DNA of 64,000 bases, taken from assembly GCA_030272585.1 (NCBI GenBank), contig BSYQ01000004.1, positions 868,001 to 932,000 on the forward strand. Direction: 5' to 3'. Shown here one piece after another: positions 2,229 through 56,895 of the stretch. The position numbers and the translations under genes are program-made. This DNA is from Bryopsis sp. KO-2023. Its lineage: Eukaryota > Chlorophyta > Ulvophyceae > Bryopsidales > Bryopsidaceae. Numbering within the stretch: the first letter of the stretch is position 1; each line of letters begins with the position of its first letter. Under the pieces are notes generated by a model that was not told where the DNA came from, searched no databases, and saw only the letters and a program-made list of their open reading frames with translations.

Positions 2229-4869
2229 ATGCTTTTCTCGCTGCTGGTTTTGTGTTTTGCGGGGCTGAGCATCGCACCTCAAGTGAATGGCGGTAGGATC
2301 GCTCATCCAAGCGTTGGGACAAGGATTCCCGTTCGCACTTTCCAATCGACGATCGTGAGGAGGTTGTTGGGTGCTGCGATCAATCGAGGACGGCTGGCTG
2401 AGGTGACAAAGAGTCTGTAGGGAGAACACCCAATTCATGTCGATTCGTGTGAATGGCCTCGGGGCTCTTGGCTGGAATTGAATTTCCAAGGATTTATTTA
2501 CAGGAATCGGGCGACGGCGGCGGCGAATCACACATTGCAAGGGCACTGTTGCAAGAGGCGGAAGAGTTTTTTGTGGTAAGCACTAACCCCTCAATCCGTT
2601 GTCGTGTGAAATTCGTCTGTTCTTCAGCCGACGATTGTGTGCGTGCGCAGGGGGGGCGTGACGCCCCGAAAGACAGGTTTCCGTATGCATGCTCGCTGAG
2701 AGTGGATGGCACCCGAGTGCATGGCTGCGGTGGAGCGTTGATCGGCACCAAATGGGTGCTGACTGCGGCGCATTGCGTGACCGGTTCGGAATCTGTTGGT
2801 GCTACACCCATTGTGTACGTGGGTGCCTATGGAATCGAAGATCCTGCAAGCGCTGAGGTGAACTCCCTGTGCTCTCGTCCTGTCGGTACTCGTCGCAAAA
2901 AGTGCGGCCAACGAGGTAATTTTCAATTTGTGGAGTGCAGGTGATCAAGTCGGTGAATGTGTTCATCCACGAGGGTTGGACCGGCAACGCAAAAGATGGC
3001 AATGATATCGCCTTGCTATTGCTGGAAACGGAAGCAACAAAGACGTATCTCAGACTGCCCCACTCAACCCACGAGCCTGGAATCAGTCAAATTGTGATGG
3101 GGGTCGGATGGGGGAGGACTTCAAAACACGGATCTTTGCCAGCAGTCCTGCAGCTTGCCGATAAACTGGAATACGTTAGAAATAGCAACTGCCAAAATGT
3201 CTGGGATCAAGTCAAGGAGAGCATGCTGTGTGCCCATGCGAATTCGCAAACACCATGCCAAGGTTCATTCAGCTGACTTCGATTGCCCGAATTAAGCCAA
3301 TTTTTTTTTTTATTTAATTTTCTTGATCCATTTTTGGTACAGGGGATTCTGGAGGTCCCTTGGTGATCCCTGATACGGAGGGAAGATTTGAAAATGGCAA
3401 CCCAGGATTTGATTTGCTGGTTGGTCTGGTGTCTTTTGGACCAGATGATTGTGGAGAAAGTCAAAAAGGGAAAATAAAGCCAGGGGTGTTCACGAGGATC
3501 AGTTTTTTCCGCGGATGGATCGATGAAAAGATGGTGAGGATCTCAATCAACTAATGATTAATTCTTGAGGCTTTCAGATGTTTTGACCTTATGTTATGTA
3601 CTGTTTCTTGTGAAGGGCAAGGGCAGCACTGGAAGTGAAGTTTCCGGGAAAGCAGCACCAGAACCATCTGAATCACCTAGTGAGGGTGAGCCGGAGGAGG
3701 TATCCGAGAAAGCAGCACCAGAACCATCTGAATCAACCAGTGAGGGAGAGCCGGAAAAGGTGAATGTTACTCGGCTTCAAATTGGTAGTACATGTGTATT
3801 GAAGGCTCCTCCATGATCTATAAGATAACCTCTCAGAAGATCTTCCGAGGTTCTGGATACACAAAATGCGCATCAGTGTCCATCATGTCAATACAGGCCC
3901 TTCCAAAGAGGTCCACATTTCGATTTTGTCAGCCTTCACTTGTAAATCTGTGGAAAAAGAGCCACTCAGGACTGTGCTGAGATGCTGTAGGAGCAGGAGG
4001 AGCCATCTACACCTCCACCACCTTCCCCAGCTGATGGTGATAAACCATCAGGACGAAATTCTCTCATATTTCTGAAAGCCGCTATAGATGGGGACATTGA
4101 AGTTGTGAAACAGGAGGTAGAGAATGGGGTTGATCTTGAAGCAAAAGGATCTTCTGGAGCAACCGCTCTTCTGTATGCTGCCCAGAATGGTCATCCAGAC
4201 ATACTTCTTTTCTTGATCGAGAAAGGTGCGGATATTGAGGCTACAGATGATGGTGGTCACAATGCGCTGGAGTGGGGAGGATTTTTCGGGCATATCGAGG
4301 TCTTACAAGTTTTGATTGATCAAGGATTGAACATTGATGAGAGCAGCGAGACTGGAGCAACGCTTGTGTATTCAGCTGCGGAAGGTGGTCAGTTGAACAC
4401 TCTACAGTTCTTTCTGGACAATGGAGCTGATGTCGATGGTCGTTTATCGAGAACTGGAGCAACGCCCCTCGTCATTGCTGGAGAGGAAGGGCATCTGGCT
4501 GTGGTGGAAGAGCTCATCTCCAGAGGGGCAGATGTGAATTCAAAAACTGATGACGGAAGTACAGTGCTTATAACGGTCACAAGGAACGGTGAAAGAGCCG
4601 AGGTCATCTTTGCACTGATTGATGCTGGTGCTGAGATCGATGGAACAGACCTTAATGGAAATACTGCTCTACACTATGCAACCTATTTTGGTCGAAAATC
4701 GAATGTTGAGGCCCTCTTGAGCCGGGACGCTGACACAACAATTGTAAATAAGAAAGGAAACACGCCAAGAGATGAAGTGTGTCTTTGTTTTTTGGATAAA
4801 GATAGCTCTTTTTGTGATTCTGAACAGTGTGAAAATGGGGCTGATGAGATCCGTGGCCTCTTTGACTAG
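2229..4869 (+). CDS. Secreted trypsin-fold serine protease fused to ankyrin repeats, copy B
   Basis: Seven exons: 2229-2402, 2504-2575, 2651-2857, 2941-3262, 3343-3533, 3616-3759, 3991-4869, coding for 662 residues. All junctions are GT-AG and phases match copy C. Order: signal peptide (about 1-21), short propeptide, S1 family protease domain from residue 83 (VGGRDAP start), then two repeats of a 24-residue Ser/Glu/Pro linker, a Pro-rich linker, and about six ankyrin repeats with a Cys-containing tail. The triad is complete: His123 in TAAHC, Asp173 in NDIAL, Ser261 in GDSGGPL. The specificity residue (chymotrypsin position 189) is Thr, not Asp, so Arg/Lys preference is unlikely. No Arg/Lys precedes the VGG activation site. 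Predicted to enter the secretory pathway; substrate unknown. The start is supported by alignment with copies C and D. Confidence 0.85.
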
Positions 4870-5922
4870 AAATGCTTTCTTGACATGGGTGGGCAGCTGA
4901 ATCATTTGATCGTTCGGATAGGCTGTGTGCGGATAGGTATTTGTTCCAACTTTGTTTTCTTTCTCAGTCATGAGGGTGTTTGTTTTCCTTGTTTTTTTTG
5001 GGGGGGGGGGGATACGAGGGTTTTGAGTTCGTAATCTGAGCTCCAGTTGCTCAGGGGATTTTGACTACAAGGAATGCTGTGACAAAGAAAAACATAAAAA
5101 ATAAAAAATAGACTGCAATTTCATCGTGTAGAATTCTCGTCGTGAATGTTGTGTCCAGGTAAACTGATGAAAATCTACCAAGCGAGGTGTTCAGATTTAC
5201 ATCCACTTCACACATAATATTTCACACGAATTGAGCTTATAAAGCTTGTTATCAGGCAGGGGAAACCTGGTGGTGATCTTGCAAACTACATTTTGTTGTA
5301 TTTTGTGCAATAGATGCTTTTTACACTCGTCCGTTTTTACTTCCACAATCAATCAACCCGAAACCCAATACCTTGTCTATCCTCGATCAAAAGAAAAACA
5401 ATCAAACGACAAAGAGGATCGCTCCAAAAATCGAAGAAGATGATTTTGGAATGCATTTATGAAAAGACAACGAAGGATATTTTTGCTTAATTTTTTCTTC
5501 CTGTTTTATTTTTTTTTCATTGTTTCTGTTTTTTCTGTAGAGATTTCGAGATTGAAACTTCTACATTTCAATTTTTGGGGAAGTTTATGGGGGTTTTCCA
5601 GCCAGTGAAAACCCCTGACTGATCTTCATTGGAATCCATGGAACCTGAGATGATACATATCAAAAAATTGGTGAGTGCTTTTGGAAAGTGTTATCTTTCA
5701 TGCAAACATGTAGCCACTCAATCATTGCAAAGTGTGAAATGTATTTCCATCTAGAGTGTACGATGTCATCTGTTGAAAAAAAATAATGCAGTTTGACCTG
5801 TGAAAGCAAACAAACAAACAAACAAACAAACATCAACCTGTGAAAGCACCCCCAGGTAGGAACATCAACCTTGTGTGGAAAGTTGTGTTTGTGTGTGTGG
5901 AACATCATCGGCCGTGTAGCTT
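4870..5922. other. Intergenic region
   Basis: No gene is visible. It begins with the family's conserved 3' flank, continues AT-rich, and holds a short (CAAA)n tract near 5806-5832. Confidence 0.5.
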
Positions 5923-6038
5923 TCCATCAATCATATGATTATGCAGAACAACGCTCGTCCCTCGATCTTTTCTGCTTCGTGCCGTGTAAACTTTGAAGTA
6001 TTGAACAGGAAAATCTCAGACTTGACGAAAAAGCAAGA
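5923..6038 (+). promoter_or_regulatory. Conserved upstream block of protease copy C
   Basis: Carries the same ordered blocks as upstream of copies B and D (ccatcaatcat, cgtccctcgatctt, tgccgtgtaaactttga) directly before the ATG. Probably promoter and 5' UTR. Confidence 0.45.
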
Positions 6039-8617
6039 ATGCTTGTCAAGCTGCTGGCTCTGTGGTTTGCGGCGCTGACCATCGCACCCCCGGTGAGCGT
6101 TGGTTGCCTGCTTGCAGGAGCTTCCAAGGCTGCGATCCATCGGGGGGGGCTGCCTGAGGTAACGCGAAGTCTGATTTTGGGGAGCACCGGCGATCCGTGT
6201 GAATGGCCTGACCTCGAGAAAGGCTCTCGACTGGAATTTATCTTCCAAGGATCTGCCTACAGGATGCGGGCGACGGCGGCGGCGAATCACACATTGCAAG
6301 GGCACTGTTGCAAGAGGCGGAAGAGTTTTTTGTGGTGAGCACTGGCTCCTCAATCCGTTGTCGTGTGAAATTCACCGTTTCCCTCAGCCGACGATTGTGT
6401 GCGTGCGCAGGGGGGCTATGACGCCCCGAAAGACAGATTTCCGTATGCATGCTCGCTGAGAATAGACGGCACCCGGGTGCATGGCTGCGGCGGAGCGTTG
6501 ATCGGCACCAAATGGGTGCTGACTGCGGCGCATTGTGTGACCGGTTCGGAATCTGTTGGCCCCACACCAATCGTGTACGTGGGTGCCTATGAAACCCAAG
6601 ATCCTGCAGGCGCCGAGGTGAAATCCCTGTGCTCTTGTCCTATCCTGCTCGCGTCGAAAATTGCGGCCAACGAGGTAATCTTGTGGAGTGCAGGTGATCA
6701 AGTCGGTGGATGTGTTCATCCACGAGGGCTGGACCGGGAATGTGGACGACGGCAACGATATCGCCTTACTGTTGCTGGAAACGGAAGCAACAAAGACGTA
6801 TCTCAGACTGCCCCACTCAACTCACGAGCCTGGAATCAGTCAAATCGTGATGGGGGTCGGATGGGGGAGAATTTCAAAACACGGATCTTTGCCAGGAGTC
6901 CTTCAGCTTGCCGATAAACTGGAGTATGTCAGGAACAGCAATTGTCAAAATGTATGGAGCCAAGTCAAGGAGAGCATGCTGTGTGCCCATGCAAATTCCC
7001 AGGCACCATGCCAAGGTTTGGCTGATTCCAGTCAATTTTTTGGAGCCCTAATTTAGATTCCTCGACTGAGATTCACTTTCCATCTCTGCAGGTGATTCTG
7101 GAGGTCCTTTGGTGATCCCTGATACGGAGGGAAGATTTGAAAATGGCAACCCAGGATTTGACATTCTGGTGGGTCTGGTATCTTTTGGACCAGATGATTG
7201 CGGAGAGAGTGAAAAGGGAAAAATAAAGCCAGGGGTGTTCACGAGGATCAGTTTTTTCCGTGGATGGATCGATGAAAAGATGGTGAGGATCTCAATCAAC
7301 TAATGATGAATTCTTGAGGCTTTCAGATGTTCTGACCTTATGTTGTCTCTTTTTTAATTTTGAAGGGCAAGGGCAGCACTGGAAGTGAAGTTTCCGGGAA
7401 AGCAGCACCAGAACCATCTGAATCACCTAGTGAGGGTGAGCCGGAGGAGGTATCCGAGAAAGCAGCACCAGAACCTTCTGAATCACCCAGTGAGGGAGAG
7501 CCGGAAAAGGTGAATGTTACTCGGCTTCACATTAGTAGTGCATGTGTATTGAAGGCTTCTCCGTGATCTATAACATAACCTCTCAGAAGATCTTCCGAGG
7601 TTCTGGATACACAAAATGCGCATCAGTGTCTTCATCATGTCAATTCGAGCCCATCCAAAGAGCTCAACATTTCGATTTGTTTAGCCTTCACTTGTGAATC
7701 TATGGAAGAAGAGCCACTCAGGATTCTGTGCTGAGCTGATGTAGGAGCAGGAAAAGCCCCCATCTGAAAATCCCCCAGCTGTTGGTGATAAAGCATCAGG
7801 AGGAAATCCTCTCAAATTTCTGAAAGCTGCTAAGGATGGGGACATGGAACTTGTGAAACAGGAGGTGGAGAATGGGATCAATCTTGAAGCAAGAGGACTT
7901 GGTGGAAATACAGCTCTTCTGTATGCCGCCGAGAATGGGCATTCAGATATATTTTTGTTTTTGATTGAGAAAGGTGCAGACCTCCAGGCTACGGATGAGG
8001 TTGGTTATACAGCACTTCAGGCGGCAGGATTCAATGGGCGTATCGAGATCTTAGAAATTTTACTAGATCAAGGAATGGACATTGAAGAGAGAGGTGATAT
8101 TGGAGCAACTGCTCTATACACAGCAGCGGAAAACGATCAGTTGGATGCTGTCAAGTTTCTGTTGGAGAAAGGGGCTGACGTTGATGCTGAGTTTTCAAAA
8201 ACTGGAGCTACCCCCCTCGTCATTGCTGGAGAGAAAGGGCACATGAGTGTGGTGGAAGAGCTCATATCCAATGGAGCAGATGTAAATTCAAAGAGTCATG
8301 ATGGATTTACAGTGCTCATGTGGGTCGCAAGAAACAGCGAAAGAGCCGAGATTATCTCTGTACTGATCGATGCTGGTGCTGAGATCGATGCACAAGACCC
8401 TTTTGGAAATGTTGCTCTGGGTTATGCAGCCAATTTTGGTCACAAGAGCAACATTGAGGCCCTCTTGAGCCGAGGAGCTGACAAGACAATTGCAGATGAA
8501 GAAGGAGACACGCCAAGAGATGACGTCTGTCATTGTTTTCTGAGGAAAGATAAAGCCTTTTGTGATACTGAACAGTGTGAGAATGGGGCTGATGAAATCC
8601 GCGGCCTTTTGGACTAG
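6039..8617 (+). CDS. Secreted trypsin-fold serine protease fused to ankyrin repeats, copy C
   Basis: Seven exons: 6039-6158, 6263-6334, 6411-6617, 6694-7015, 7092-7282, 7366-7509, 7745-8617, coding for 642 residues. Signal peptide MLVKLLALWFAALTIA, short propeptide, S1 protease domain from about residue 65, two linker repeats (SEGEPE type), Pro-rich linker, about six ankyrin repeats and the EQCENGADEIRGLLD tail. Triad His105, Asp155, Ser243 is intact. Position 189 is Ala (SQAPCQGDSGG), which again argues against trypsin-like specificity. The ankyrin part has diverged more from A and B than the protease part. Inner exons 2-6 have the same lengths as copy B; exons 1 and 7 are shorter, which supports the splice model. 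Function inferred from fold only; secretion inferred from the leader. Confidence 0.85.
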
Positions 8618-11980: not shown

Positions 11981-12660
11981 TTTCGGCACACTCCTGATGG
12001 TCTCAACGACGACGTGTTGGCTCAGTCAAAGACACTCTCGCGACCCCACGTCCAAGATTTACTGGAGAGACTCGCCGTCAAATGGGGGATGACAGAAACT
12101 GAGGTCGACAGAAACAACAGAGTTGGAGAGCGCCGCCAATTTAGCTAAATTGGAACCTGGCAAAGAAAAGAATTGATTCCAAAAACGTATAACCGTCTCA
12201 TAGCACCGAGAACAAAACTTAGACGATCCAGAGAGTGTAGCTTTAATCAATCCCAACCAATAACAATGCGCGAAAAAGACAATTTTAACCAAAACTGACG
12301 ACCTTTTTCGCTTGCCAGGGCCTCCAGCTCTTTTCCTGATTCTGTAGACTCGACTCCTTTTCATTCTTTCTTTTCTACTCATTTTCAACCAAGTCTGCTT
12401 TTTCAGCAAGCGAGGCCCGAGGTTGGCAGGAAGCTTGTTTCCAATGAATCGATTGCAAACTCAAAAGTGGGTTCTGCATTCGCGTGGAAATTCTGTGCCT
12501 GACTCTGAGTGTCAAGTTTCCACGTCAGCATGCATCACGTGTTCTTGCTTGGGTAGCATTGTGTCCACAAAATCATTTTCATGTAAAAAGGGGGCTTGAT
12601 TCTCAGCAGTCCAGTTGCCCGCCACAAACCCCAAATTTGTGTTCACCGTGCGCAACCACG

Positions 12661-13941
12661 ATGCTGTCTTTTTCCAACCCCAATCTTGTAAACGGAGGGT
12701 TCACAAGAGCGTCTCGACGGTCGCTTTCGCTCCATCCAAAGCGACTACCTGCTGCGATGGGGTTGTCTGCTGGACTTGGAGTTTCTTCTGCCCCCGACAC
12801 AGAAGTCGCTGTCAAGGAGGCAGTCACCGCTGCGCGAGCGAAACTACCAGAGGGTAGCGCCCCCACCATCGCTTTCGTGAACGCCACCGTCGACCGAGAC
12901 ATGGGAAAGTTTTCCGAGTGCCTCGCGGAGCAGTTGGGGGGCGTTCCCTTGCATGGACACACGTCGTGCGCATCCATTCTCGACGGTACAACTATCGTTC
13001 CCAACGGCGTGGGAGTGCTTCTCTTAAATACGGAGGAGGGGGCTCTGGTGTCGGCAGCGCAGCCATTGACGGATTCGGTCTCTCCGTATCAAGCTGGATG
13101 GATGGCCGCCCAGGCGCTCGTGGAGCAAGTGGGTTCTGCTGCGGACGTCAAGCACGTGCTGTTCACTGCGACGCCTGGGATAGAAGATGAGGTAATGAAA
13201 GGCGTCGAGAGCGTTCTTGGCAGCACACCCTTGTTTGGGGGGCCAGCTGCGGACAACACAATCGAAGGCAACTGGAACCTCGTGACGTCCAGCGCAGGGG
13301 TTTTCCCCAACGGCGTATCGCTGGTGGGCGTGACGGGAAAAGTATCGTTCGGCGCGAGCTTGGTTTCTCCTTACACTCCGTCAGACCGGTCGGCAAAAAT
13401 CACGGGTGCCGAGGGACGTCGAATCCTGACACTTGACGATTGACCCGCTGCTGAAGTTTTGAACGAATGGATGGGAGGGCAAATCGAAACTCAATACAAA
13501 GAGGGTGGAAGCATAGGTTTGGAGTGTTCTACTTTCCCACTGGCCATCCAAAAGGAAAACGGCTCCTACGCATCCCTGCATGCCGCCGGGGTTAATGCTC
13601 CAGAGGGGTCCATCGATTGCTTTGCCCAGGCCGAAGTCGGCCAGACGCTGACGGTGATGAACAAGGACGGTGGGAAAGACTCGGTACTGGCGGCATCCCT
13701 GGGCTTGGAGCGCGCATACGATGCGGCGAAGCAAAAAGGGGAAATCACTGAGCCTGCCGCCGGTCTGTTTATCTATTGCGGGGGACTGAGTTTCGCTGTG
13801 GGGGATCGATTCGAAGAGAGCTTGGCGCCACTCAAAGACAAGGTGCCAATGATCGGATCGACCGTCTTTGGAGAGCAAGACAATTTTGACGGCAGCAATT
13901 TGCATTGCAACCTTGCCGTAGGAGTGGCCCTTTTTGAGTAG
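12661..13941 (+). pseudogene. FIST-domain protein, copy 1 (in-frame stop)
   Basis: One uninterrupted frame of 427 codons except for a TGA at 13441-13443. The N-terminus (Arg/Ser-rich, FTRASRRSLSLHPKRLP) looks like an organelle-targeting leader. Then comes a FIST N-region (LHGHTSCASILDG, HVLFTATPGIEDEVMKGV, GGPAADN) and, after GRRILTLDD, the FIST C-region (LNEWMGG, GLFIYCGG, GSTVFGEQ). FIST domains are sensory modules thought to bind small ligands. The second copy (45523-46798) has CGA (Arg) where this one has TGA, so a single C-to-T change explains the stop; this is not a selenocysteine site. Start chosen at the first ATG in frame shared by both copies. Confidence 0.75.
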
Positions 13942-15061: not shown

Positions 15062-17400
15062 GATCGCGAACGACCCTTGGAAACCCTTCGTAGGAACACT
15101 GGGGCTGACTAGGAGGTGAGGCTCCGCAGCCTTTTGTGTCCAATGTGAACGACCCTTGGAATTGATTCCTAGGAACCTTAAGACCGACAGAAAGAGGTGA
15201 GGCTCTGTAGCCTTTTGTTTCGAATGTGGACGACCCCCGGAATCGATTCCTAGGAACCTTAAGACTCACAGAAGGAGGTGAGGCTCTGTAGCCTTTTGTG
15301 TCGGATGTGAACGACCCCTGGAATCGGTTTCCAGGAACCTCAGGACTCACTGAAGGAGGTGAGGCTCTGTAGCCTTTTGTGTTGAATGTGAACGACCCCT
15401 TGGAATCGATTCCTAGGAACCTCAAGACGGACTGAAGGAAATGAGGCTCTGTAGCCCTTTGTGTCGAATGCGAACGACCCCTGGAATCGGTTTCCAGGAA
15501 CCTTAAGACTCACCGAAGGAGGTGAGGCTCTGTAGCCTTTTGTGTCGAATGTGAACGACCCCTTGGAATCGATTCCTAGGAACCTCAATACTGACTAAAG
15601 AAAATGAGGCTCTGTAGCCTTTTGTTTCGAATGTGAACGACCCCTGGAATCGGTTTCCAGGAACCTTAAGTCTCACTGAAGGAGGTGAGGCTCTGTAGCC
15701 TTTTGTGTCGAATGTGAACGACCCCTTGGAATCGATTCCTAGGAACCTCAAGACTGAGTAAAGAAAATGAGGCTCTGTAGCCTTTTGTTTCGAATGTGAA
15801 CGACCCCTGGAATCGGTTTCCAGGAACCTTAAGTCTCACTGAAAGGGGTGAGGCTCTGTAGCCTTTTGTGTCGAATGTGAACGACCCCTTGGAATCGATT
15901 CCTAGGAACCTCAAGACTGACTGAAGAAAATGAGGCTCTGTAGCCTTTTGTTTCGAATGTGAACGACCCCTGGAATCGGTTTCCAGGAACCTTAAGTCTC
16001 ACTGAAAGGGGTGAGGCTCTGTAGCCTTTTGTGTCGAATGTGAACGACCCCTTGGAATCGATTCCTAGGAACCTCAAGACTGACTGAAGAAAATGAGGCT
16101 CTGTAGCCTTTTGTGTCGAAAGTGAACGACCCCTGGAATCGGTTTCCAGGAACCTTAAGTCTCACTGAAGGAGGTGAGGCTCTGTAGCCTTTTGTGTCGA
16201 ATGTGAACGACCCCTGGAATCGGTTTCCAGGAACCTTAAGACTCCCCGAAGGAGGTGAGGCCCTGTAGCCTTTTGTGTCGAATGTGAACGACCCCTTGGA
16301 ATCGATTCCTAGGAACCTCAAGACTGAGTAAGAAAAATGAGGCTCTGTAGCCTTTTGTGTCGAATTTGAACGACCCCTTGGAATCGATTCCTAGGAACCT
16401 CAAGACTGACTGAAGAAAATGAGGCTCTGTAGCCTTTTGTGTCGAAAGTGAACGACCCCTGGAATCGGTTTCCAGGAACCTTAAGTCTCACTGAAGAAGG
16501 TGAGGCTCTGTAGCCTTTTGTGTCGAATGTGAACGACCCCTGGAATCGGTTTCCAGGAACCTTAAGACTCCCCGAAGGAGGTGAGGCTCTGTAGCCTTTT
16601 GTGTCGAATGTGAACGACCCCTTGGAATCGATTCCTAGGAACCTCAAGACTGAGTAAAGAAAATGAGGCTCTGTAGCCTTTTGTTTCGAATGTGAACGAC
16701 CCCTGGAATCGGTTTCCAGGAACCTTAAGTCTCACCGAAGGGGGTGAGGCTCTGTAGCCTTTTGTGTCGAATGTGAACGACCCCTTGGAATCGATTCCTA
16801 GGAACCTCAAGACTGACCGAAGAAAATGAGGCTCTGTAGCCTTTTGTGTCGAAAGTGAACGACCCCTGGAATCGGTTTCCAGGAACCTTAAGTCTCACTG
16901 AAGGAGGTGAGGCTCTGTAGCCTTTTGTGTCGAATGTGAACGACCCCTGGAATCGGTTTCCAGGAACCTTAAGACTCCCCGAAGGAGGTGAGGCTCTGTA
17001 GCCTTTTGTGTCGAATGTGAACGACCCCTTGGAATCGATTCCTAGGAACCTCAAGACTGAGTAAAGAAAATGAGGCTCTGTAGCCTTTTGTTTCGAATGT
17101 GAACGACCCCTGGAATCGGTTTCCAGGAACCTTAAGTCTCACTGAAGGGGGTGAGGCTCTGTAGCCTTTTGTGTCGAATGTGAACGACCCCTTGGAATCG
17201 ATTCCTAGGAACCTCAAGACTGACTGAAGAAAATGAGACTCTGTAGCCTTTTGTGTCGAAAGTGAACGACCCCTGGAATCGGTTTCCAGGAACCTTAAGT
17301 CTCACTGAAGGAGGTGAGGCTCCGCAGCCTTTTGTGTCCAATGTGAACGCCCCTGGAATCGATTTCCAGGGACCTTAAGACTGACTAAAGGAGGTGAGGC
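15062..17400. repeat. Tandem array of about 28 units of 81-82 bp
   Basis: Each unit carries gtgaggctctgtagcctttt, then gtgaacgacccc, then a short palindrome, then ggaacctcaagact or ggaaccttaagtct. Two unit types largely alternate, giving a higher-order period near 163 bp: one has the hairpin cctggaatcggtttccagg, the other ttggaatcgattcctagg. Minus-strand frames crossing it are by-products, since 163 is not a multiple of three. It lies wholly inside the 13984-18270 insertion. Confidence 0.9.
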
Positions 17401-17650
17401 TCTGCCCTTCCCCCACTGCGTGTCGATCAAGAGCGACGACGGCCGGTCGCAGCAGGTCGTCACAGCCAAAACTCATGTTCCGCGTAAATAAGTGACGCTT
17501 TAGCAGCTTTTTACTCACCCTCCTCCTCCTGATCGAACTCGTGCTTCCCAACAGAAGCAAAACGCGCGAACTGCCCTGTAAGCGCGGCCACGCCCCTAGG
17601 GTCGCGATCCTCCTGCGCTGGCAGCGCATGCCTCGGCATTTATTAATCTC

Positions 17651-28951: not shown

Positions 28952-31900
28952 CTAGTCAAAGAGGGCACGGATCTCATTGGACCTATTTTCACACTGTTCA
29001 ATATCACAAAAGGCACTGTCTTTCGACTGGAGACAATGACACACTTCATCTCTGGGTGTGTATCCTTGTTCATTTACAATTGTTGTGTCAGCTTTTCGGC
29101 TCAAAAAGGCCTCAACATTCGATTTTCGACCAAAATAGGTGGCATAGTGCAGAGCAACGCTTCCAGAAGGGTCTTTTGCATTGATCTCAGCACCAGCATC
29201 AATCATTGCAAAGATGATCTCGGATCTTTCGCTGTGCCTTGTGACCATCATGAGCACTGTAATTCCTTTATTACTCTTTGCATTTACATCTGCCCCTCTG
29301 GAGAGGAGCTCTTCCACCACATCCAGATGCCCTGTCTCTCCGGCGATGACGAGGGGTGTAGCTCCAGTTCTCGATAAAGGAGCATCAATTTCAGCTCCAT
29401 TGTCCAGCAAGAACTTCACAGTTTTTAATTGGCCACCTTCTGCTGCTGAGTACAGAGCAGTCGCTCCAGTACTACCTCTCTCATCAATGTCCATTCCTTG
29501 ATCAATTAAGACTTGCAAGACCTCAATATGCCCATTATATCCGCTCCACTCGAGTGCATTGTTACCATCATCATTAGTAGCCTGAAGATCCGCACCTTTT
29601 CCGATCAAGAAAAGAATTATATCTGGATGACCACCATGGGCAGCATACAGAAGAGCGGTTCCCCCATCGATTCCTGCTACTTCAAGATCAACCCCATTCT
29701 CCACCTCCTGTTTCACAGCTCCAATGTCCCCATCGACAGCAGCTTTCAGAAATATGAGAGGATTTCCTCCTGATGCTTTATCACCATCATCCTCATCATC
29801 ATCAGCTGGGGACGGTGGTGGATAATCATCATCATCATCATCATTATCACCAGCATCAGCATCAGCACCAGCACCATCATCAACATCCTCATCATCATCA
29901 GCTGGGGACGGTGGTGGAGAATCATCATCATCCTCAGCATCAGCATCATCATTATTACCAGCATCAGCATCAGCACCATCATCAACATCCTCATCATCAT
30001 CAGCTGGGGACGGTGGTGGAGAATCATCATCATCATCCTCAGCATCAGCATCATCATTATCACCAGCATCAGCATCAGCACCATCATCAACATCCTCATC
30101 ATCATCAGCTGGGGACGGTGGTGGAGAATCAGCATCAGCATCATCATCATCATCCTCAGCATCAGCATCAGCATCATCATTATCACCAGCATCAGCACCA
30201 GCACCATCACCATCATCAACATCAACATCCTCATCAGCTGGGGACGGTGGTGGAGAATCATCATCCTCATCCTCAGCATCATTATTATCACCAGCACCAT
30301 CATCAACATCATCATCATCATCAGCTGGGGAGGGTGGTGGAGAATCATCATCCTCATCCTCAGCATCATTATTATCACCAGCACCATCATCAGCATCCTC
30401 ATCAGCCTCATCATCATCAGCTGGGGACGGTGGTGGAGAAGAAGAAGGAGGGGGAGTTGGTGGAGGTGTAGATGACTGCTTTGGGTCCTCCTGCTCCTAC
30501 AGCATCTCAGTATCGTCTTGAGGGGCTCTTTTTCCAGAGATTCACAAGTAAAGGCTAACAAAATCGAAATGTAAGAAGAAGCCTCCAATACACATGTACT
30601 ACTAATGCAAGTCAAAATACTTGGGGTACATCTGCTCATTGCCTAACCCCATTTCAGAAAAAAAGAAGAAAGAGAACGAAGATTCAAGGGCATTCACCTT
30701 TTCCGGCTCTCCCTCACTGGGTGATTCCGAAGAATCTGGTGCTTTTTTCTCAGATACTTCACTTTCTGTGCTGCCCTTGCCCTTCAAAACAAGGAAGCAG
30801 ATCAGCAAACCTCAACATTGGTGATTGGTCCAATGTTGATGGATTGAGATTGGAAAGCTGTCTCACCATCTTTTCATCAATCCATCCACGGAAATAACTG
30901 ACCCTCGTGAAAACCCCTGGCTTTACTTTTCCCTTTTCACTCTCTCCGCAATCATCTGGTCCAAAAGACACCAGACCAACCAGCAGGTCAAATTCCGATT
31001 CACCTTTTTCAATTCCCCCCACCGTATCAGCGAGCACCAAAGGACCTCCAGAATCCCCTGCAGAGATGAAAATTGAATCTCAGTCAAGGAAATATGAATC
31101 AGGGCTCCCAAAAAATTGACTGCAATCAGCAAGACCTTGACATGGTGCTTGGGAATTTGCATGGGCGCACAGCATGCTCTCCTTGAGTTGATGCCACACA
31201 TTCTGGCAATTGCTGTTCCTGACATACTCCAGTTTATCGGCAAGCTGTAGGACTGCTGGCAAAGATCCGTGTCTTGAAGTCCTCCCCCAGCCTACCCCCA
31301 TCAGAATTTGACTGATTCCAGGCTCATGAGTTGAGTGGGGCAGTCTGAGGTATGTCTTCGTTGCTTCTTTTTCCAGCAATAGCATTGCCATCGTCGACAT
31401 CGCCGGTCCAGCCCTCGTGAATGAACACATCCACGGACTTGATCACCTGCATTCCACAAAATCAAAGTGCTAGTTCTACGACGCGTCGGCTCCAATTTCG
31501 AGACTGGTACCCAGAGGAAAGGGTGCAAAGGGAGTTTACCTCAGCGCCGGCAGGATCTTGGGTTTCATAGGCACCCACGTACACGATGGGTGTGGGGCCA
31601 ACAGATTCCACACCGGTTACACAATGCGCCGCAGTCAGCACCCATTTGGTACCGATCAACGCTCCGCCGCAGCCATGCACTCGGGTGCCGTCTATTCTCA
31701 GCGAGCATGCATACGGAAACCTATCTTTCGGGGCGTCACGCCCCCCCTGCGCACGCGCACCATATCCGCTGAGAAAAGGAAAGATTGAAGACAACGGATT
31801 GAAGAGCCAGCGCTCACCCCAAAAAGTTCTTTCGCGTCTTGCAATAGTGCCCTTGCAATGTGTGTTTCGCCGCCATTCTTGCTAGCATCCTGCAGACAGA

Positions 31901-32118
31901 TCCTTGGAAAGTCAATTCTTACCGAGAGCCCCTCCCGAGACCATTCACACGAATCGACTTGAATCCAGTGTTATCCCCCAAATCAGACTTCGTATTACCT
32001 CAGATGACCAGCCTCGATGGATCGCAGCCTTGGAAGCTCTTGCAAGCAGGCAACCAACGCTCACCGGGGGTGCGATGGTCAGCGCTGCAAACCACAGAAC
32101 CACCAGCGAGAAAAGCAT
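28952..32118 (-). pseudogene. Protease-ankyrin fusion, copy D (11-bp deletion)
   Basis: Seven exons on the minus strand with the same phases as copies B and C: 31999-32118, 31818-31889, 31540-31746, 31136-31446, 30867-31057, 30698-30781, 28952-30496. Exon 4 is 311 bp instead of 322: compared with copy B, 11 bases have been lost after DDGN, removing the catalytic Asp codon and shifting the frame to a stop about 17 codons later. His and Ser regions and the ankyrin exon are otherwise intact. The linker exon has one Ser/Glu/Pro repeat instead of two, while the Pro/Asp linker has expanded greatly. The residue before GGRDAP is Gly. An expressed, protease-dead or internally initiated form cannot be excluded. 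Confidence 0.8.
29795..30450 (-). repeat. Expanded acidic linker repeats in copy D
   Basis: The minus strand encodes repeats of PPPSPADDD followed by Asp/Ala-rich runs (EDVDDGADADAG, NDDADAEDDDD), about seven blocks. Copies B and C have a single block of about 20 residues here. The DNA is an imperfect (ATC/AGC)n tract, so slippage plus unequal exchange is the likely cause. The frame stays open. Confidence 0.85.
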
Positions 32119-44696: not shown

Positions 44697-45522
44697 GGAG
44701 TAGAGATAATTTAGAAACTAAAGGTATCATTTTTCTATATGTTTTGGATGACCTGCAACACAGCGGTGTAGAAGCTACGTAGCGAGTTTAGAGCTCGTTG
44801 ATCTCAGGATCGATCCATGTGTATATTTGGGGGAGTCTTTCTGGCAAGCCTTTTTTACACCACCTTTATCTTTCAAAGCCGTCTGCTCCGGCCAATTTGG
44901 TTCTTGTAAATTTCAGGCTGTTGTTGGTTACCGCTGGCCTCCGTCAAATAATAATCCAGGAAATGATGGAGATTCAATTTTTTGTGTTTTCGTGGGGCAA
45001 TGTTTTTTTCTCGTAATACGCTCCCCAGAGTTCTTGGAATTTTTACATTTTTGTGTGCTTCGTTTTTTTGAATCAGGATCAAGGTAGGGTGGCAAATTTT
45101 ACAATTTGAGGTTTCAACGAGCATTATTGGCTCTGTGGTTTTTTGTGGTATTTTGACTGGTGTTGGGTACTGGTTGCGACAGAAGCTGGTGAGTCTAACC
45201 GGCTTCTGAGGCAACATTGTGGTCATCAATCTAGGATTGCGGTTTTAGGGATAAAAAGAGGATGTGTTGGAGAATAGAACGAGCGATGTGAAACCTGTTT
45301 TGCAAAAGGTTCACTGTCTGATAACTGGATGGCTGGAATTTCACACTGGAACTTACAGTTGCTAGTTGCTGGCAGTTTGTAAGTTGGGGATCTAAGCTTT
45401 GGTACTTGAAGGGACTTTGGTTGGAACAGGGACGGTACTTTTTGCAGTGAAAGAATGTGACTTCAACAAAAATGGAATTCTTTGCCTATTGGGTGCGGCA
45501 AAAACAAGCTTTCACCGCATTC

Positions 45523-46798
45523 CTACTCAAAAAGGGCTACTCCTACGGCAAGGTTGCAATGCAAATTGCAGCCGTCAAAATTGCCTTGCTCTCCGAAGAC
45601 GGTCGATCCAATCATTGGCGCCTTGTCTTTGAGGGGCGCCAAGCTCTCTTCGAATCGATCCCCCACAGCGAAACTCAATCCCCCGCAATAGATAAACAGA
45701 CCGGCGGCAGGCTCAGTCATCCCCCCCTTTTGCTTTGCGGCATCGTATGCGCGCTCCAAGCCCAGGGATGCCGCCAGCACCGAGTCTTTCCCACCGTCCT
45801 TGTTCATCACTGTCAGCGTCTGGCCGACTTCGGCCTGGGCAAAGCAATCGATGGACCCCTCAGGAGCATTAACCCCGGCGGCATGCAGGGATGCGTAGGA
45901 GCCGTTTTCCTTTTGGATGGCCAGTGGGAAAGTAGAACACTCCAAACCTATGCTTCCACCCTCTTTGTATTGAGTTTCGATTTGCCCTCCCATCCATTCG
46001 TTCAAAACTTTAGCAGCGGGTCGATCGTCAAGTGTCAGAATTCGACGTCCCTCAGCACCCGTGATTTTTGCCGACCGGTCGGACGGAGTGTAAGGAGAAA
46101 CCAAACTCGCGCCGAACGATACTTTTCCCGTCACGCCCACCAGAGATACGCCGCTGGGGAAAACCCCTGCACTCGACGAGGTTCCAGTTTCCTTCGATTG
46201 TGTTGTCCGCAGCTGACCCCCCAAACAAGGGTGTGCTGCCAGGAACGCTCTCGACGCCTTTCATTACCTCATCTTCTATCCCAGGCGTCGCAGTGAACAG
46301 CACGTGCTTGACGTCCGCAGCCGAACCCACTTGCTCCACGAGCGCCTGGGCGGCCTTCTATCCAGCTTGATACGGAGAGACCGAATCCGTCAAAGGCTGC
46401 GCTGCCGACACCAGAGCCCCCTCCTCCGTGTTCAAGAGAAGCACACCCACGCCGTTGGGAACGATAGTTGCACCGTCGAGAATGGATGCGCACGACGCGT
46501 GTCCATGCAAGGGAACGCCTCCCAACTGCTCCGCGAGGCACTTGGAAAACTTTCCCATGTCTCGGTCGACGGTGGCGTTCACGAAAGCGATGGTGGGGGC
46601 GCTACCCTCTGGTAGTTTCGCTCGTGCTGCGGTGACTGCCTCCTTGACAGCGACTTCTGTGTCGGGGGCAGAAGAAACTCCAAGTCCAGCAGACAACCCC
46701 ATCGCAGCAGGTAGTCGCTTTGGATGGAGCGAAAGAGACCGTCGAGACGCTCTTGTGAACCCTCCGTTTACAAGGTTGGGGCTGGAAACAGATAGCAT
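45523..46798 (-). pseudogene. FIST-domain protein, copy 2 (stop plus 5-bp deletion)
   Basis: Inverted copy of 12661-13941. It has the Arg codon where copy 1 has a stop, but carries its own lesions: TGG to TAG at 46358-46360 (after SPYQAG), and a net 5-bp loss at about 46170-46180 between NWNLV and AGVFP. Total length, 1276 against 1281 bp, agrees with a single 5-bp difference. The leader-like N-terminus and both FIST regions are otherwise preserved. Neither copy in the window can make the full protein. Confidence 0.75.
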
Positions 46799-47285
46799 CG
46801 CGGTTGCACACGGTGAACACAAACTTGGGGTTTGTGGCGGGCAACTGGATAGCTGAGAATCAAGCTCCCTTTTCACATGAAAATGATTTTGTGGACACAG
46901 TGCTTCCCAAACAAGAACACGTGATGCATGCTGACGTGGAAACTTGACACTCAGAGTCAGGCACAGAATTTCCACATGCTTTCACGGGAGAATGCAAAAC
47001 TCACTTTTGAGTTTGCAATTGATTCATTGGAAACAATCTTCTTGCCAACCTCGGGCCTCGCCGTGCTGAAACATCAGACTTAGCTGAAAAATGAGCAGAA
47101 AAGAAAGAATTTTAAAAGGTGTCAAGTTTACAGAATCAGGAAAAGAGCTGGAGCCCCTGGCAACCGAAAGAGGTTGAGACCATCGTCAGTTTTGGTTGAA
47201 ATTGTCTTTTTTGCGCATTTTTATTGGTGATTGATTAAAGCTACACTCTCTGGATCGTCTAAGTTTTGTTCTCGGTGCACTGAGA

Positions 47286-51350: not shown

Positions 51351-52272
51351 CAGTTCTATTTTAGGAGTGCACTGATGAGCATTTGCTGGCCCTTCCATTA
51401 GGTGGACAGTGGATCCCACTTAATGACGCTTCACTTTGACAGAAAGTTGTGGGGCAGGTGAGTTGTCGAGGCCTTTTTTTGCACATTTGTTTTTTCTGAA
51501 ATTGCTGTTGTGGATTGTCATGTTCCACCACACAGGTTTCCAGCTCCAATATGCGTATGCATGCAGTCAAGCTACCAAGTGTGGGGAGGGGATGCTGGTT
51601 GATTGTTATCATCGATTGATCAAATCTCATTCCAGATTATCCTTTTCACCTGACCGAAACAATGTCTCGCCTCCTAACTTCGGGGTCACCTAACCTCCAG
51701 GATCACGTGTCCAAAACCATCTGGGGATATGACAAAGCTCCATCGAAGAAGATTTCTCCTCTACAAAGAGGTTGCAACCTGTCATTTCATCATACATGAA
51801 CACGGAAGACTCAGCCGTCATTTACTTAGGACACAGAAAGAGCTTTCATCGTTTCATCGGATGGGAAGAGAAACCTTTCAACAAACAAAAATGAGACAAG
51901 TTCCCACCAAAAACAGACGGGCGCCGACTGCTGCTTCATACTGGTGCGGGAAGTTAGAGGATTTCGAATTCTTCCCCAGCTAGAAATGACTTTTTTTGTT
52001 GTCGCTCCAGATCTGTTGTTTGTTTTTCCTCACCAGCCCGGTTCCTTTCGCAACGCTAGAAAGTCTAACGGGGTCGTTTTCAGGGGGGTTCGAAACTCAA
52101 TCCAACTGGTGTTAACTTTCCCCTTGTGAGGGTGTGTGATGTGTTTTCCTCTCAACAGGAAAAAGGCAACATTTTTCGACGTTCCACATTTGCACAACCT
52201 CCACCCCCCAAAAAGAGAAATCAAAAACCCAAAGAGGGGAACAGAGCTGGAGGGCAGCTTTAAGTGTCTTTG
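51351..52272. other. Region upstream of the ARM/U-box gene
   Basis: No gene is visible. The last part before 52273 is probably 5' UTR and promoter; an in-frame TAA (52261-52263) precedes the chosen ATG. Confidence 0.4.
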
Positions 52273-55200
52273 ATGGTCAAATACAAGAAATGGCTGCACC
52301 GAGTCAAGAAGCCTTCCTTCCTTGGCGAGGAAAAGGAGGTCTTCAGCCCCTCCAACAGTTCCCATGTAAATTCGGGGATCGAGGAAATCGCCAGCTGTTG
52401 CTCCACCACTTCCCATGTCACTGCCATGGATGCGGATTCAGCCGGCATGTATGAAGATGTGGGGAAGGTTTTGAGGTATCTGAAAACAGGGGTCCGGTCC
52501 GAAATCAATGCTGCGCTGAGAGGGGTCATAGATTTTTCCCACGAAAACAAGGGGCTCTTGATCCAGGAAGGTGGAATGCAAGTAATGTTGAGGGTTCTGG
52601 AAGAGAAGCGTCCATGCCAGGTGTTGGTGCTGGAGGCTTTGATTTCATTGTTCGACTCTGGCCTGGATTGGAGAGGTGCTTTCGATGCCGGGAATGGGCC
52701 ACATCTGTTGGTCAAAATGCTGAAGCAAGGTGATCTGGCGGGGCTGAGGGTTGTCCCCCACTTGCTGGAAACCCGGGAGGGGATGGTGACTTTCCACGCT
52801 GCCGGTGGGATCGAGGCATTGACCGGAGCCCTTGTATTGGATGGGGAGGTAACTAGAATGGAGGCTGCCAAGGGACTCTCACAAATGGCCAGAATGAGTC
52901 CATCGTACCAGGATGAAATCGTCACCTCTGGGGCCCTGGCAAGTTTGACAAAACTCTGCACCAGCAAGAAAGCGTCCAGAGTGGCATGCATGAGTTTGAT
53001 CGCTGATTTGACCGCCAGCAGCCATCTTGCCCGGAATGAAATGGCAAGAAGTCAGTCATGGGATCCGATCGTGTCTATGTTGAGCTCGAGGACACCTGAG
53101 ATGAGGGAGGCTGTGGCCAGAATGCTGTTCAATGTGTCCGAATCTTTGGAGTGTTGGAGATTCATCCCTTGGAAGAAAGCAGTCAAAAGGTTGCTGGCCT
53201 GTCTTGACTCGGGCCAAACTGAAGCTGAATTGTGGATGCTGCGTGCCTTGAACAACTTCTGGATACCAACGTTTTACACAGGTGGGATACCTTCAGGACT
53301 TTGTTGCTTGAAAGCCATTTTTTTTCATAATTGGTGCTTGGAAGGGGGTTGTGCTGCAAGTAGAAAAGAAATTGCAGGTGAATTCCATGTGGATGTCATG
53401 CAATTTTCAGGCAGACATCTACCTGTAGATTAGTTATAAGCCTCACACCCAATATCATTCCTTTGTATAGTAGATGGGATAGGCAGGTAGAAAGGTCATC
53501 GGGTGCTTTGGCAAGTTATATTGCAGCTTTATAGAACACAGAATATTTCAATTTCAACCTGGATGCAAAATAACAGCAAATAAAGAAAAAGAATGATGAA
53601 GCAAAGTAGCTGGAACTATTGTACCACTGCATTTTTTATTTTTCATTATTGAATCAGTATTTTCATCCTTTGGCACCCAGAGCCGACGGGCCGTGCACTG
53701 GGAAGGTACTATGGTCTGGACCCACGCTACATACTGAATGACCCATCAATGGATAAAATCCTAGTCCAGGGAACCTCAGCTTGCCGTAGGGAAGCCCTCC
53801 GATGGTTGACCACAGCTACAGCAGGAAACAATGGCTACATGAAGAGCATCTCCACCACAGCTGCGATGGTCAAGAGCCTGGTGGAAATCCTTCACAGAGA
53901 GGACCTGGAGTTCAGGTGCCAAGCAGCCAGATTTTTGTACACTATGATGTGCTCGAACAAAATTCGGCGCCAAGTAGCGAGCAGTGGAGGGGTATTCCCC
54001 CTAGTCCAGCTTCTGAAATTAGGGGACCAAGGGAGGGTAAGTGCTCTCGTCCAGCTTTCTGAGGAGAAGTCTGTTCCTGGTATTTTTGTCTCCCAAGGGG
54101 CCATGGATGCTTTGGCCGCTTTTTTTTTGCACGTCCAGTTTTACGATGTGTTAGGAGGGTCTCTTGGATTCCAGCTTGAGTTGCCCATTGAAAATTAGAT
54201 TGCATTTTGGTAAAGTTCAAATCGTTTCGATTTTCTCATTTTCTCCATCAATTTTCCCATCAAATGTTCCATTTCTTGCTGATTTGAGTGCATGCCCCAG
54301 GTCAGCTTCAAACGGATGGACTCTGTAGTTCGTATGCTTCCCTATGCATCGCTGGAGGGAAAAAATTGCATAGCCGACATCGTGGGGGATTTGGTAACAA
54401 ATCAAGCAAAGGCCCAGCTTGTGCTGAATCTCCAGACCCATAGGTATCTTCTGAAGTTGCTGGATTCGGCATCACATGGGCCAGCAGTTCGAGCTTTGAC
54501 AAGCATTGCAGTCCACTCCTCAAGCCTGCGGGAGATCTTGGCCAGTGATTCGAATTTGCGTGAAATCATTCCCAAATTGGAAGGATTGGAGCTGAGCGAC
54601 ATCGCAGATGCTGCTCGATACATAGGCGTAGTCGTTTGTGAGGTTGGTCAGCCTAACTCGTTCTCACAGACAGTGCTGCAGACACCCATGAGCAGGTCTG
54701 CATACAACGATGCTGGTCAAAGCCATGGGTTGCTCCTGCGTAAAATCATGCATATACCAGCTAGCTAGGAATGGATCAGTTTCCTGCCTGGTCCCTGAGG
54801 TCATCGGTAGTTTCACTTACTTGGGTTGTCTGTCTTTCCCAGAACGGGGCTCACCAAAATCGAGTTGCACGATGTGGAGGGATTCCTCCTCTCGTTCAGC
54901 ACTTGTCTTGGCCCCATGCAAAATGCAAGGCTATGGCAGCCCTTGCGCTTGCTGAATTGGTGGAAAAAAACGCATCGAATCAACAGGCAGTTGTCAGGGA
55001 GGGTGCTATTCCGCATCTTGTATTGCAGCTTCATGATGAGGTAACAAAAGCATGCCACATCCAAATCGCTGAACGAGATTGACTGTAAATACTCGGAGAG
55101 GCTGTCATACACCCCCAAAAAATATGGATCATATGATCCAACGATTTCATAAGCAAAAAAAAAAGTGTGGATGACTGGTCCATTTTTCTTATTTATTATT

Positions 55201-56895
55201 TTTTGGGGGGGGGATGAGGGGTGCAGACTAGGAGATGGTGAGGCTTGTTTAAGGCATATGCTTCATCTTTTTCTGATTTTTAACATTTGGTGGCATCTTG
55301 CTGAAATGGGATTGGGTGTGTGTGGTAAGGACGATGAATGCAGGAAAGAGGCGGCTCATGCACTTGCAAACCTCACATTCCGAAATCCACAACACCAAGT
55401 CTTGTTGGCCAAACTCAAGCCAGGTAAACCGCTGCTCAAGCTGTTGGAGGGGAAATCCAGCACAGCTACGAAATGTCATGCTGGTAGGGTGTTCTCCAAC
55501 CTTGCTGAAAGCACCCAGCCAGGGGTGGTCGCCTTACGAAAACTTTGCATAAGGCCGCTGGTTGCCATGCTGTCATCCGAAATGAGGGAATGTCAGGAAA
55601 ATGCTGCAAAGTATGTAGCGAATCTGGCAATTTGCAGGGTGGAACAGAGAATGATTTTCAAGGCAGGGGGCATTCCACCTCTGGTCAATCTAGCGAGATC
55701 TAGACTGCCAAACGCACAGAAGCATGCTGTCCGCGCTCTCGCCAACCTTTCACGCCAGGCTGATCATGCTCCTGACATAGTCAGCGAAGGTGGCATTCCT
55801 ATCCTTGTGAATCTCCTCAGCTCTATTGGGAACAGCAGAGAGCAAGTGGTGGGGGCCTTGGCAAACATCGCATGTAATGCTCAAAGTAGCCACGCAATCA
55901 TTGAAGCAGGGGGGATCCGGCCCTTGCTGAATCTGTTGAGCAGTGGAGGGGATGCTTGTCAAATTGAATCCATTCGGATGATAAACAATATGGCAACTTA
56001 TTCTCCAGCCGGGAAAAAAGCGCTCATTGATTCTGGGGCATTGAACTATCTGACCGTCTTGCTGAAAGAAGGCAGCAAAGCAGATGTCAAAAAGAAGCTG
56101 ATTCGTGCTCTCATCAGCTTGATGTCTGACAATGAGGAAGCCCAGTTGTCTCTTCTGAATGAGGGGATGGTGGAGTCGGTGGTGGCTGCTGTGAAACAAG
56201 CTGGCATTGGGGACCCCCAGGTGGAAATGGAAGCGAGACGAGCTTTGCTCACACTATGTTGTGGGGTGGACGGTGAGGTGAGGTGCTAAACTCACACCAA
56301 GGGTAATTTTGACCCTCAGTCCATTTTGTCCAAGAAGTGACTTCATCAAAGTCTGGTGTTATTGTTGCTCTGATGGGAGGTTTTTATGGGCAGATGATTT
56401 GAGTTGGCCCCCTTTTTTTCTGTTGTAGGGATCTGCCCGGGGAGCACTCCAGGCTGGGCGAGCTCGATGTGTGACTTCTGTTCTCGACACGGCACCCTTT
56501 CCGGTGAGCAACAAAATGCAACAGCAATGTGTGGCTTGAAATGCCATCCGGTGCCCACAATTACAATATTCCCATCAATGCAGAGATACAGAAATTTGGG
56601 GGTTTTTTAGCAGGTCAACGAGGGTCAAAAAATTGAGAAAAAGGGAGCAGAGGCCTTGATCCGCAACCCTCGGCATCTCTGTTGCCCCATCTCACTCGAG
56701 TTGATGAAGGACCCTGTGATGGCGGTCGATGGTTACACCTACGAGAGGTCGGCCATCACGAAATGGTTCAGAAAAAACAAGTGCACCTCGCCTATGACTA
56801 ATCAAAGATTGGCCAGCTCGCAAATTTGCCCAAATCGCTTGGTAGCTAGCATGATACAGGAATTCAGGTCGAAGCAAGGAGGCGTCAGGTTATGA
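52273..56895 (+). CDS. Armadillo-repeat protein with C-terminal U-box (probable E3 ubiquitin ligase)
   Basis: Seven exons: 52273-53281, 53681-54132, 54301-54642, 54843-55040, 55330-56277, 56429-56503, 56614-56895; about 1101 residues. The long N-terminal part is a series of armadillo repeats (VLEALISLFDSGLDWR, GGIPPLVNLARSRLP, HAVRALANLSRQADHAP, GGIRPLLNLLSSGG). The last 94 residues hold a U-box: LCCPISLELMKDPVMAVDGY, TYERSAITKWF, CTSPMTN. U-boxes recruit a ubiquitin-charged E2; ARM repeats bind substrate. In plant PUB-ARM ligases the U-box usually precedes the ARM repeats; here it follows. The end of exon 2 is uncertain: a strong gtaagt at 54037 would drop one ARM helix pair. Two decayed relatives lie at 9921-11630 and 50190-50640. 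Confidence 0.85.

Follow-up and report, generated by a model that had tools for sequence, protein, structure and literature searches.

An apparently exported protease family with C-terminal ankyrin arms in the green alga Bryopsis sp. KO-2023

The mosaic S1A proteases of animals, such as hepsin, plasma kallikrein and the coagulation factors, carry regulatory domains added to one catalytic domain, and these auxiliary domains (EGF, kringle, apple or CUB) are N-terminal. Ankyrin (Ank) repeats, for their part, are mostly intracellular. We describe here, in a 64,000-nt stretch of the genome of the green alga Bryopsis sp. KO-2023 (C4:868001-932000, hereafter the window), genes B and C, which seem to join a trypsin-fold S1A protease domain, placed behind a leader, to an Ank arm, and the large family to which they belong. 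A search of this genome for light-harvesting proteins gave 107 matches; one of them, read across its intron, has as best PDB match Bry-Lhcb1 (8hlv, 513.9 bits over residues 1-223), which to judge by its name comes from Bryopsis. This S1-Ank family is a kind of mosaic S1A protease: fold and catalytic triad are common with the animal enzymes, and the best PDB match of the protease half of B is hepsin (E 7.8e-27). On the other hand its auxiliary domain is a C-terminal Ank solenoid, and residue 189 is Thr or Ala, not Asp.

The likeness to other known systems is partial. Crab collagenase (brachyurin, 1azz) is an S1A match to a divergent family member (E 1.3e-24), but the crab enzyme is devoid of Ank and the window genes carry Gly226. 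Latrotoxins are secreted proteins in which many Ank repeats come after a helical N-terminal part, and they are not known to contain an S1 or other protease domain; the N-terminal part of B is S1A, which sets it outside the latrotoxins. In a Foldseek search with the Ank exon of B, the highest-ranking structures are fusions of designed ankyrin repeat proteins (DARPins); these are designed, whereas the arms of the alga are natural, Cys-tailed and fused to a protease. Finally, the same genome contains solo Ank genes, which share with B and C the Ank module, in most cases the Cys tail and, where it was read, the leader, and which have no S1 exon match nearby.

To our knowledge S1A proteases are scarce in the green lineage, and an open-literature search on S1A in green algae led nowhere. 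Among the open-literature matches listed, which for some of the searches are the top 10 to 12 of more papers, none shows S1 and Ank in one protein; the genome paper of the alga lies outside this coverage, so that absence from print is unproven. S1A and Ank are each well known; their union in a large and apparently exported family is unseen in the literature listings covered.

Structure of genes B and C

Genes B and C are on the forward strand and comprise seven exons each (window coordinates):

2229-2402, +, gene B exon 1: hydrophobic, signal-peptide-like leader and propeptide
2504-2575, +, gene B exon 2: propeptide with the ARALLQ motif, stopping just short of the S1 domain (FFV)
2651-2857, +, gene B exon 3: S1 domain, catalytic His (TAAHC)
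2941-3262, +, gene B exon 4: S1 domain, catalytic Asp (GNDIAL)
3343-3533, +, gene B exon 5: S1 domain, catalytic Ser (GDSGGP)
3616-3759, +, gene B exon 6: Ser/Glu/Pro linker, with a 60-base repeat present 1.9 times
3991-4869, +, gene B exon 7: a Pro linker, then the Ank part (N-cap, six repeats, C-cap), then the four-Cys tail; lacks Met
6039-6158, +, gene C exon 1: leader and propeptide
6263-6334, +, gene C exon 2: propeptide with the ARALLQ motif
6411-6617, +, gene C exon 3: S1, His
6694-7015, +, gene C exon 4: S1, Asp
7092-7282, +, gene C exon 5: S1, Ser
7366-7509, +, gene C exon 6: linker, with the 60-base repeat as in B
7745-8617, +, gene C exon 7: Ank part followed by the Cys tail

Both spliced frames (B, 2229-4869; C, 6039-8617) are open and their introns are GT-AG; the product of B has 662 amino acids followed by a stop. 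It runs from a hydrophobic leader to an S1A domain with an intact triad, a Ser/Glu/Pro linker, the Ank repeats and the four-Cys tail, and the same order is found in C. When this 662-residue product was submitted to the domain search that a preliminary description of this DNA had proposed, residues 82-318 covered positions 2-220 of the 220 of the Pfam Trypsin model (E 1.8e-41), i.e. a full-length match, and several Ank models came out above cut-off: Ank_2 (E 9.1e-37), Ank (E 1.3e-28), and Ank_4, Ank_3 and Ank_5 too. The AlphaFold2 model of the Ank exon of B (mean pLDDT, the predicted local distance difference test, 89.8) is a confidently predicted solenoid in which six repeats lie between an N-cap and a C-cap, with a folded tail after them, and Foldseek relates this model to Ank structures (best E 7.1e-17).

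The succession of S1, linker, Ank and Cys tail in one spliced frame is, as read from the DNA, well supported for B and C. The preliminary description had seen two intact copies, a complete trypsin-fold domain, about six Ank repeats with a Cys tail, and all of these in one frame behind a leader; each of these points holds. The four tail Cys are invariant in the 13 Ank exons aligned, three of which belong to genes without S1, and the Cys-tail motif occurs in 34 of 38 tails (of the four others, two are shortened by the alignment and two have no cysteines). These tail cysteines probably form disulfides.

One may wonder if two adjacent genes, or alternative products—a protease and an Ank protein—have been mistaken for one. 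For B the idea of separate protease and Ank genes was rejected: exons 6 and 7 encode no Met, an in-frame stop at 3988 adjoins exon 7, and another one lies 57 bases upstream of exon 6 with no Met between, so that a separate Ank gene is unlikely there. Furthermore, in L053 and L054, two distant members of the family, the S1 exon continues in frame into a Pro/Ser-rich linker. Against a single gene stand the copies A0 and E, with Mets in frame upstream of the Ank exon, and C itself, with internal Mets in exon 7 (at 34, 111, 167 and 192). Solo Ank genes with their own leader also occur elsewhere in the genome, and the last intron of B contains ATG-led pieces of up to 69 codons, short pieces of this kind recurring in B, C and A1. 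B and C have two such starts in common, with correspondingly placed GT sites (3764/7514 and 3792/7542), because this intron is 91% identical between both genes; by eye, none of the ATG-led pieces listed for B, C and A1 opens with a leader-like stretch. A separate Ank gene or product seems unlikely for A0, C and E, and the two-gene explanation as a whole appears extremely improbable to us.

Extent of the family and neighbouring copies

Three queries—exon 4 of B for S1, the Ank exon, and a tail exon of a distant member—were searched genome-wide (91.09 Mb, 28 contigs) and gave at least 121, 151 and 185 matches respectively, all three counts being lower bounds. The S1 and Ank rows of C4 were compiled by hand, keeping a single fragment per gene and leaving out rows that overlapped as well as a few degenerate ones. 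Of the 74 exon-4 S1 matches listed on C4, 56 are followed on their own strand, within 5 kb, by an Ank match. For the same 74 an Ank match is found upstream in 21 cases and on the opposite strand in 6; those upstream could belong to the preceding tandem gene. In 1000 shufflings of the Ank strands the downstream count averaged 30.6 and reached 45 at most, to be compared with the 56 observed. This suggests that the chromosome holds dozens of genes seemingly joining an apparently exported trypsin-fold protease to an Ank arm. In distant members the Ank repeats are split by introns and followed by the same kind of tail, L052, L053 and L054 having also a Cys-bearing N-cap.

A local family of four copies, as first proposed, is thus ruled out by the genome search, with at least 56 S1-Ank pairs on C4. 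The "recent local expansion" invoked for it was too small in view of this number, and also too young: nearby copies differ by a synonymous divergence (dS) of 0.25-0.35 in S1 and 0.20-0.59 in Ank. Apart from B and C, the copies located in and near the window are the following:

1-873, +: gene A1, truncated by the window start to its Ank exon; S1 exons at C4:866.3-867.6 kb (L012, L035)
28952-32118, -: gene D, an S1 and Ank copy whose reading frame breaks in exon 4, at catalytic Asp102
C4:862.4-865.2 kb: A0, the S1-Ank copy before A1
C4:750-753 kb: sixth copy
C4:631-633 kb: fragmentary copy

A1, which had been taken for a partial copy, extends beyond the start of the window, and its S1 exons were found within 1.7 kb upstream. 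Its linker exon 6 was not recovered; since exon 5 and exon 7 share phase 0, they could be spliced directly to each other in frame. By contrast the broken copy of the preliminary description is really broken, since D, on the minus strand, loses its frame in exon 4 at Asp102. In D the linker (about 29780-30496, -) is enlarged by acidic PPPSPADDD repeats in tandem, whose units measure about 87-129 bases. All five copies read (B, C, A0, A1 and E) retain GTGAGG as the exon-5 donor.

Other features of the window can be mentioned here. A gene pair, alike by eye and in opposed orientation, occupies 12448-13941 (+) and 45451-46981 (-); its first copy, the only one submitted to the Pfam scan, matches FIST N. 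A long minisatellite lies at 15111-17404 (periods of 163 and 407 bases, score 3548), and open reading frames (ORFs) with armadillo repeats at 52264-56289 (+).

Catalytic triad, pocket and predicted activation of the protease half

The triad is nearly constant among the 28 genes compared, with Ser195 in 27, Asp102 in 27 and His57 in all 24 whose own relevant stretch of exon 3 was readable. L017 (C4:1675270-1677233) is an S1-Ank gene whose Ser195 is changed to Ala (GDAGDP) and which is apparently non-catalytic. Besides C4, a second S1 cluster exists at C14:1.11-1.39 Mb, of which one member was read (L055, 507-1181).

Residue 189 is Thr in B and Ala in the five other window-type genes, C included; elsewhere in the 28-gene set it is Gly, Ala, Ser or Thr, with a lone Asp in x1548 (L018). 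The specificity of trypsin for Lys and Arg was discarded on this basis, Asp189 being absent from 27 of the 28 genes. Residue 226 is Gly in the window genes; in a divergent clade, whose residue 189 is small, it is Asp in the eight genes having that stretch (six by pattern, two by eye) and aligns with a Gly of hepsin. This divergent clade comes close to the combination of Gly189 and Asp226, which we take to be the pocket of crab collagenase (brachyurin). For the window genes, a pocket made with Thr or Ala at 189 and Gly at 226 would suit hydrophobic or small residues and not Lys or Arg, so that chymotrypsin/elastase-like proteases are the best reading of their sequence.

The propeptide ends in EEF-FVGG in B and C, a junction that is like the IVGG of such enzymes by its position only, and from which A1 and D differ. 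It predicts an activation cut after Phe (P1 = Phe), and since the predicted pocket accepts hydrophobic or small residues, this cut is possibly made by the family members themselves. Upstream, the leaders of four hand-picked S1-Ank genes (B, C, L051 and L052) contain a hydrophobic 12-mer with a Kyte-Doolittle mean of 2.34-2.66, which would direct the protein into the secretory route.

A motif R-x-LLQ follows the leader in all six window-type genes, in four of five distant S1-Ank genes and in six of the nine solo Ank genes scanned. These solo carriers are L020, L023, L025, L026, L028 and L029, and the motif is perhaps a common propeptide or sorting signal. The solo Ank genes L019-L021, L023 and L025-L030 have no S1 exon match within 1.5 kb on either side, and a leader is present in L023, L025, L028 and L030, the members in which this part was read. 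With leaders, Cys tail and R-x-LLQ in genes devoid of protease, the Ank module appears to enter the secretory route independently as well.

The ankyrin arm and its possible roles

We propose that these proteins are exported S1A proteases of a large Bryopsis-type family, whose substrate is chosen by a diversifying Ank arm for recognition in defence or wounding; taken as a whole, we hold this proposal to be evenly balanced between right and wrong. The leader would bring the protein into the secretory route, and the propeptide would be cut before F/V-G-G, possibly by family members. The Ank solenoid with its Cys-bearing C-terminus would hang from the protease through the flexible Ser/Pro/Glu linker, would bind a protein and would thereby select the substrate of the catalytic domain. 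The proteins so recognized would be varied and possibly foreign, either in defence or in a wound response where protoplasm is extruded into seawater. A "protease with a built-in binding arm" thus stays the best reading, while the expression, export, targets and role of the S1-Ank proteins are all predictions made from their genes.

Both halves do not evolve alike. Over the ten pairs formed by five copies, the ratio of nonsynonymous to synonymous divergence (dN/dS) is 0.10-0.25 in S1 and 0.28-0.54 in Ank, with a dN of 0.026-0.073 and 0.054-0.267 respectively; in nine pairs the Ank dN is 2.5 to 8.7 times that of S1, dS being much closer. Inside the arm (six contact positions, six repeats, six copies), the ratio of the proportions of nonsynonymous and synonymous differences (pN/pS) is 0.94 at contact positions, 0.46 at other exposed positions and 0.36 in the core; by permutation among exposed sites the contact pN was reached in 0 of 10000 draws, and three copies only still gave p 0.0007. 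The contact classes used are those we take to be canonical for Ank repeats, and the most variable positions coincide with those randomised in DARPins. A conserved protease joined to an arm with a varying contact face makes the recognition of varied proteins the likeliest role.

The main rival is a plain digestive or vacuolar role. The proteases would be nutritional or housekeeping enzymes, exported or vacuolar, the Ank part would be no more than an anchor, on the cell wall or on the enzyme itself, and gene birth and death with a relaxed constraint on the surface of Ank would account for the variety. Many variants can indeed arise from tandem arrays and gene exchange by themselves, and a contact pN/pS that does not exceed 1, together with the same tendency in solo Ank genes, fits such an explanation. 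The faster change of Ank than of S1 in nine of ten pairs speaks against it, as does the location of the excess, which the canonical binding face shows and the other exposed positions do not. Overall we consider this role somewhat unlikely.

Substrate choice by the arm meets several difficulties of its own, which have to be set against it. In the pair A1-B, Ank is no faster than S1 (0.9 times); the contact pN/pS of 0.94 is not above 1, the value of neutrality, and the pairs compared are not independent. An excess of contact pN is also seen in six solo Ank genes (0.343 versus 0.182, 0 of 10000 permutations; pN/pS 0.69 versus 0.53), though weaker than in the S1-Ank genes, so that part of it would be ordinary relaxed constraint or a feature common to secreted Ank proteins. 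The catalytic Ser is lost in one of the 28 genes, and L055, in the C14 cluster, has Asp in place of Ser195 (CQGDDGG) with no Ank match in the 5 kb read, being perhaps a pseudoprotease. Export is read from the hydrophobicity of the four hand-picked leaders, and a vacuolar destination is equally possible. The Ank part could be an anchor or a dimerisation surface instead of a selector, and the defence or wound role, though plausible, is drawn from the biology of the genus and not from these genes. As for positive selection on the Ank face, it was rejected, pN/pS being below 1 and a weaker form of the excess occurring in solo Ank genes.

The arms have also moved between genes, to judge from L052 and L054. 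Both are 90-91% identical in DNA over two stretches of about 1.19 kb, which correspond to the Ank half with its introns, whereas just 47 bp of their S1 halves align as DNA. The Ank tree unites them (SH-aLRT, the Shimodaira-Hasegawa-like approximate likelihood ratio test, 95), and on the S1 data this union is rejected (p 4e-6). In these analyses x1548 was left out of the S1 data of the topology test, and x1754, x1649 and x1675 entered the trees and the topology test without exon 3, the matched piece belonging to other genes. By these sequences, the Ank halves of L052 and L054 have been exchanged between genes. For the window group, a grouping with its S1 sister group is rejected by the Ank data (p 8e-12), yet no rejection of the Ank grouping comes from the S1 data (p 0.116 to 0.119); a swap of Ank type between these two groups is not claimed, and exchange is limited to L052/L054. 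A nearly constant protease with a varying and exchangeable arm suggests a family of aimed proteases and not one odd gene.

A viral or bacterial source of the fusion was considered and rejected within a narrow test that is silent on eukaryotes: 30 Ank-profile loci (viral contigs) and 3 S1-exon-profile loci (genome contigs) were taken, and their ORFs of at least 80 amino acids include 3 with S1 and 55 with Ank, with no overlap among the 45 Ank ORFs listed.

Besides Ank, lectin domains may be associated with the protease. Bryohealin lectins are reported to be duplicated in a Bryopsis genome. Fucolectin domains (PF22633) have 79 matches in the present genome and, among the S1 matches listed, at least five places have S1 followed by such a domain on the same strand (the ORFs of two were read; L004, L006):

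C9:2324203-2326614, +: S1 then fucolectin (PF22633)
C9:2240265-2243254, -: S1 then fucolectin (PF22633)
C9:2146516-2149338, -: S1 then fucolectin (PF22633)
C3:4116180-4117083, +: S1 then fucolectin (PF22633)
C4:86541-90232, +: S1 then fucolectin (PF22633)

A second fused type, protease plus lectin, is possible if these places are single genes, which is putative. They bring up another explanation, in which S1-Ank and S1-lectin proteins act on the extruded protoplasm or on plug proteins and activate one another like clotting factors, forming a wound protease cascade. In PMC3252328, wounding of Bryopsis is described as freeing protoplasts that survive 10-20 minutes in seawater without membrane, their formation being aided by lectins, one of which is said to carry an antibiotic domain; the same paper attributes the aggregation of the protoplasm in seawater to lectins. 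The propeptide cut predicted after Phe would moreover fit the predicted pocket of the family itself. On the other side, the likeness to clotting is an analogy, S1 and fucolectin form one gene only putatively, and the link of these genes with wounding is hypothetical. We regard such a cascade as decidedly unlikely.

Our proposal of a substrate-choosing arm can also be carried further, to a germline repertoire of aimed proteases serving as a humoral system of recognition and cleavage. It would draw on the S1 matches that have an Ank arm behind them, of which a single chromosome has at least 56, and on the S1-then-lectin matches. In such a repertoire the arms would diversify on their binding face and swap between genes while the catalytic domain stays constant; it would parallel the complement and clotting cascades of animals, and would protect a giant single cell in which every wound brings protoplasm into contact with seawater. 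This extension seems quite doubtful to us.

In Bryopsis, a family of dozens brings Ank and S1A together. Should its arms indeed choose targets, the family would be a natural counterpart of a DARPin-aimed protease, with many natural variants to learn from, and it would offer a testable candidate for the way in which a giant coenocytic cell handles wounds and microbes.

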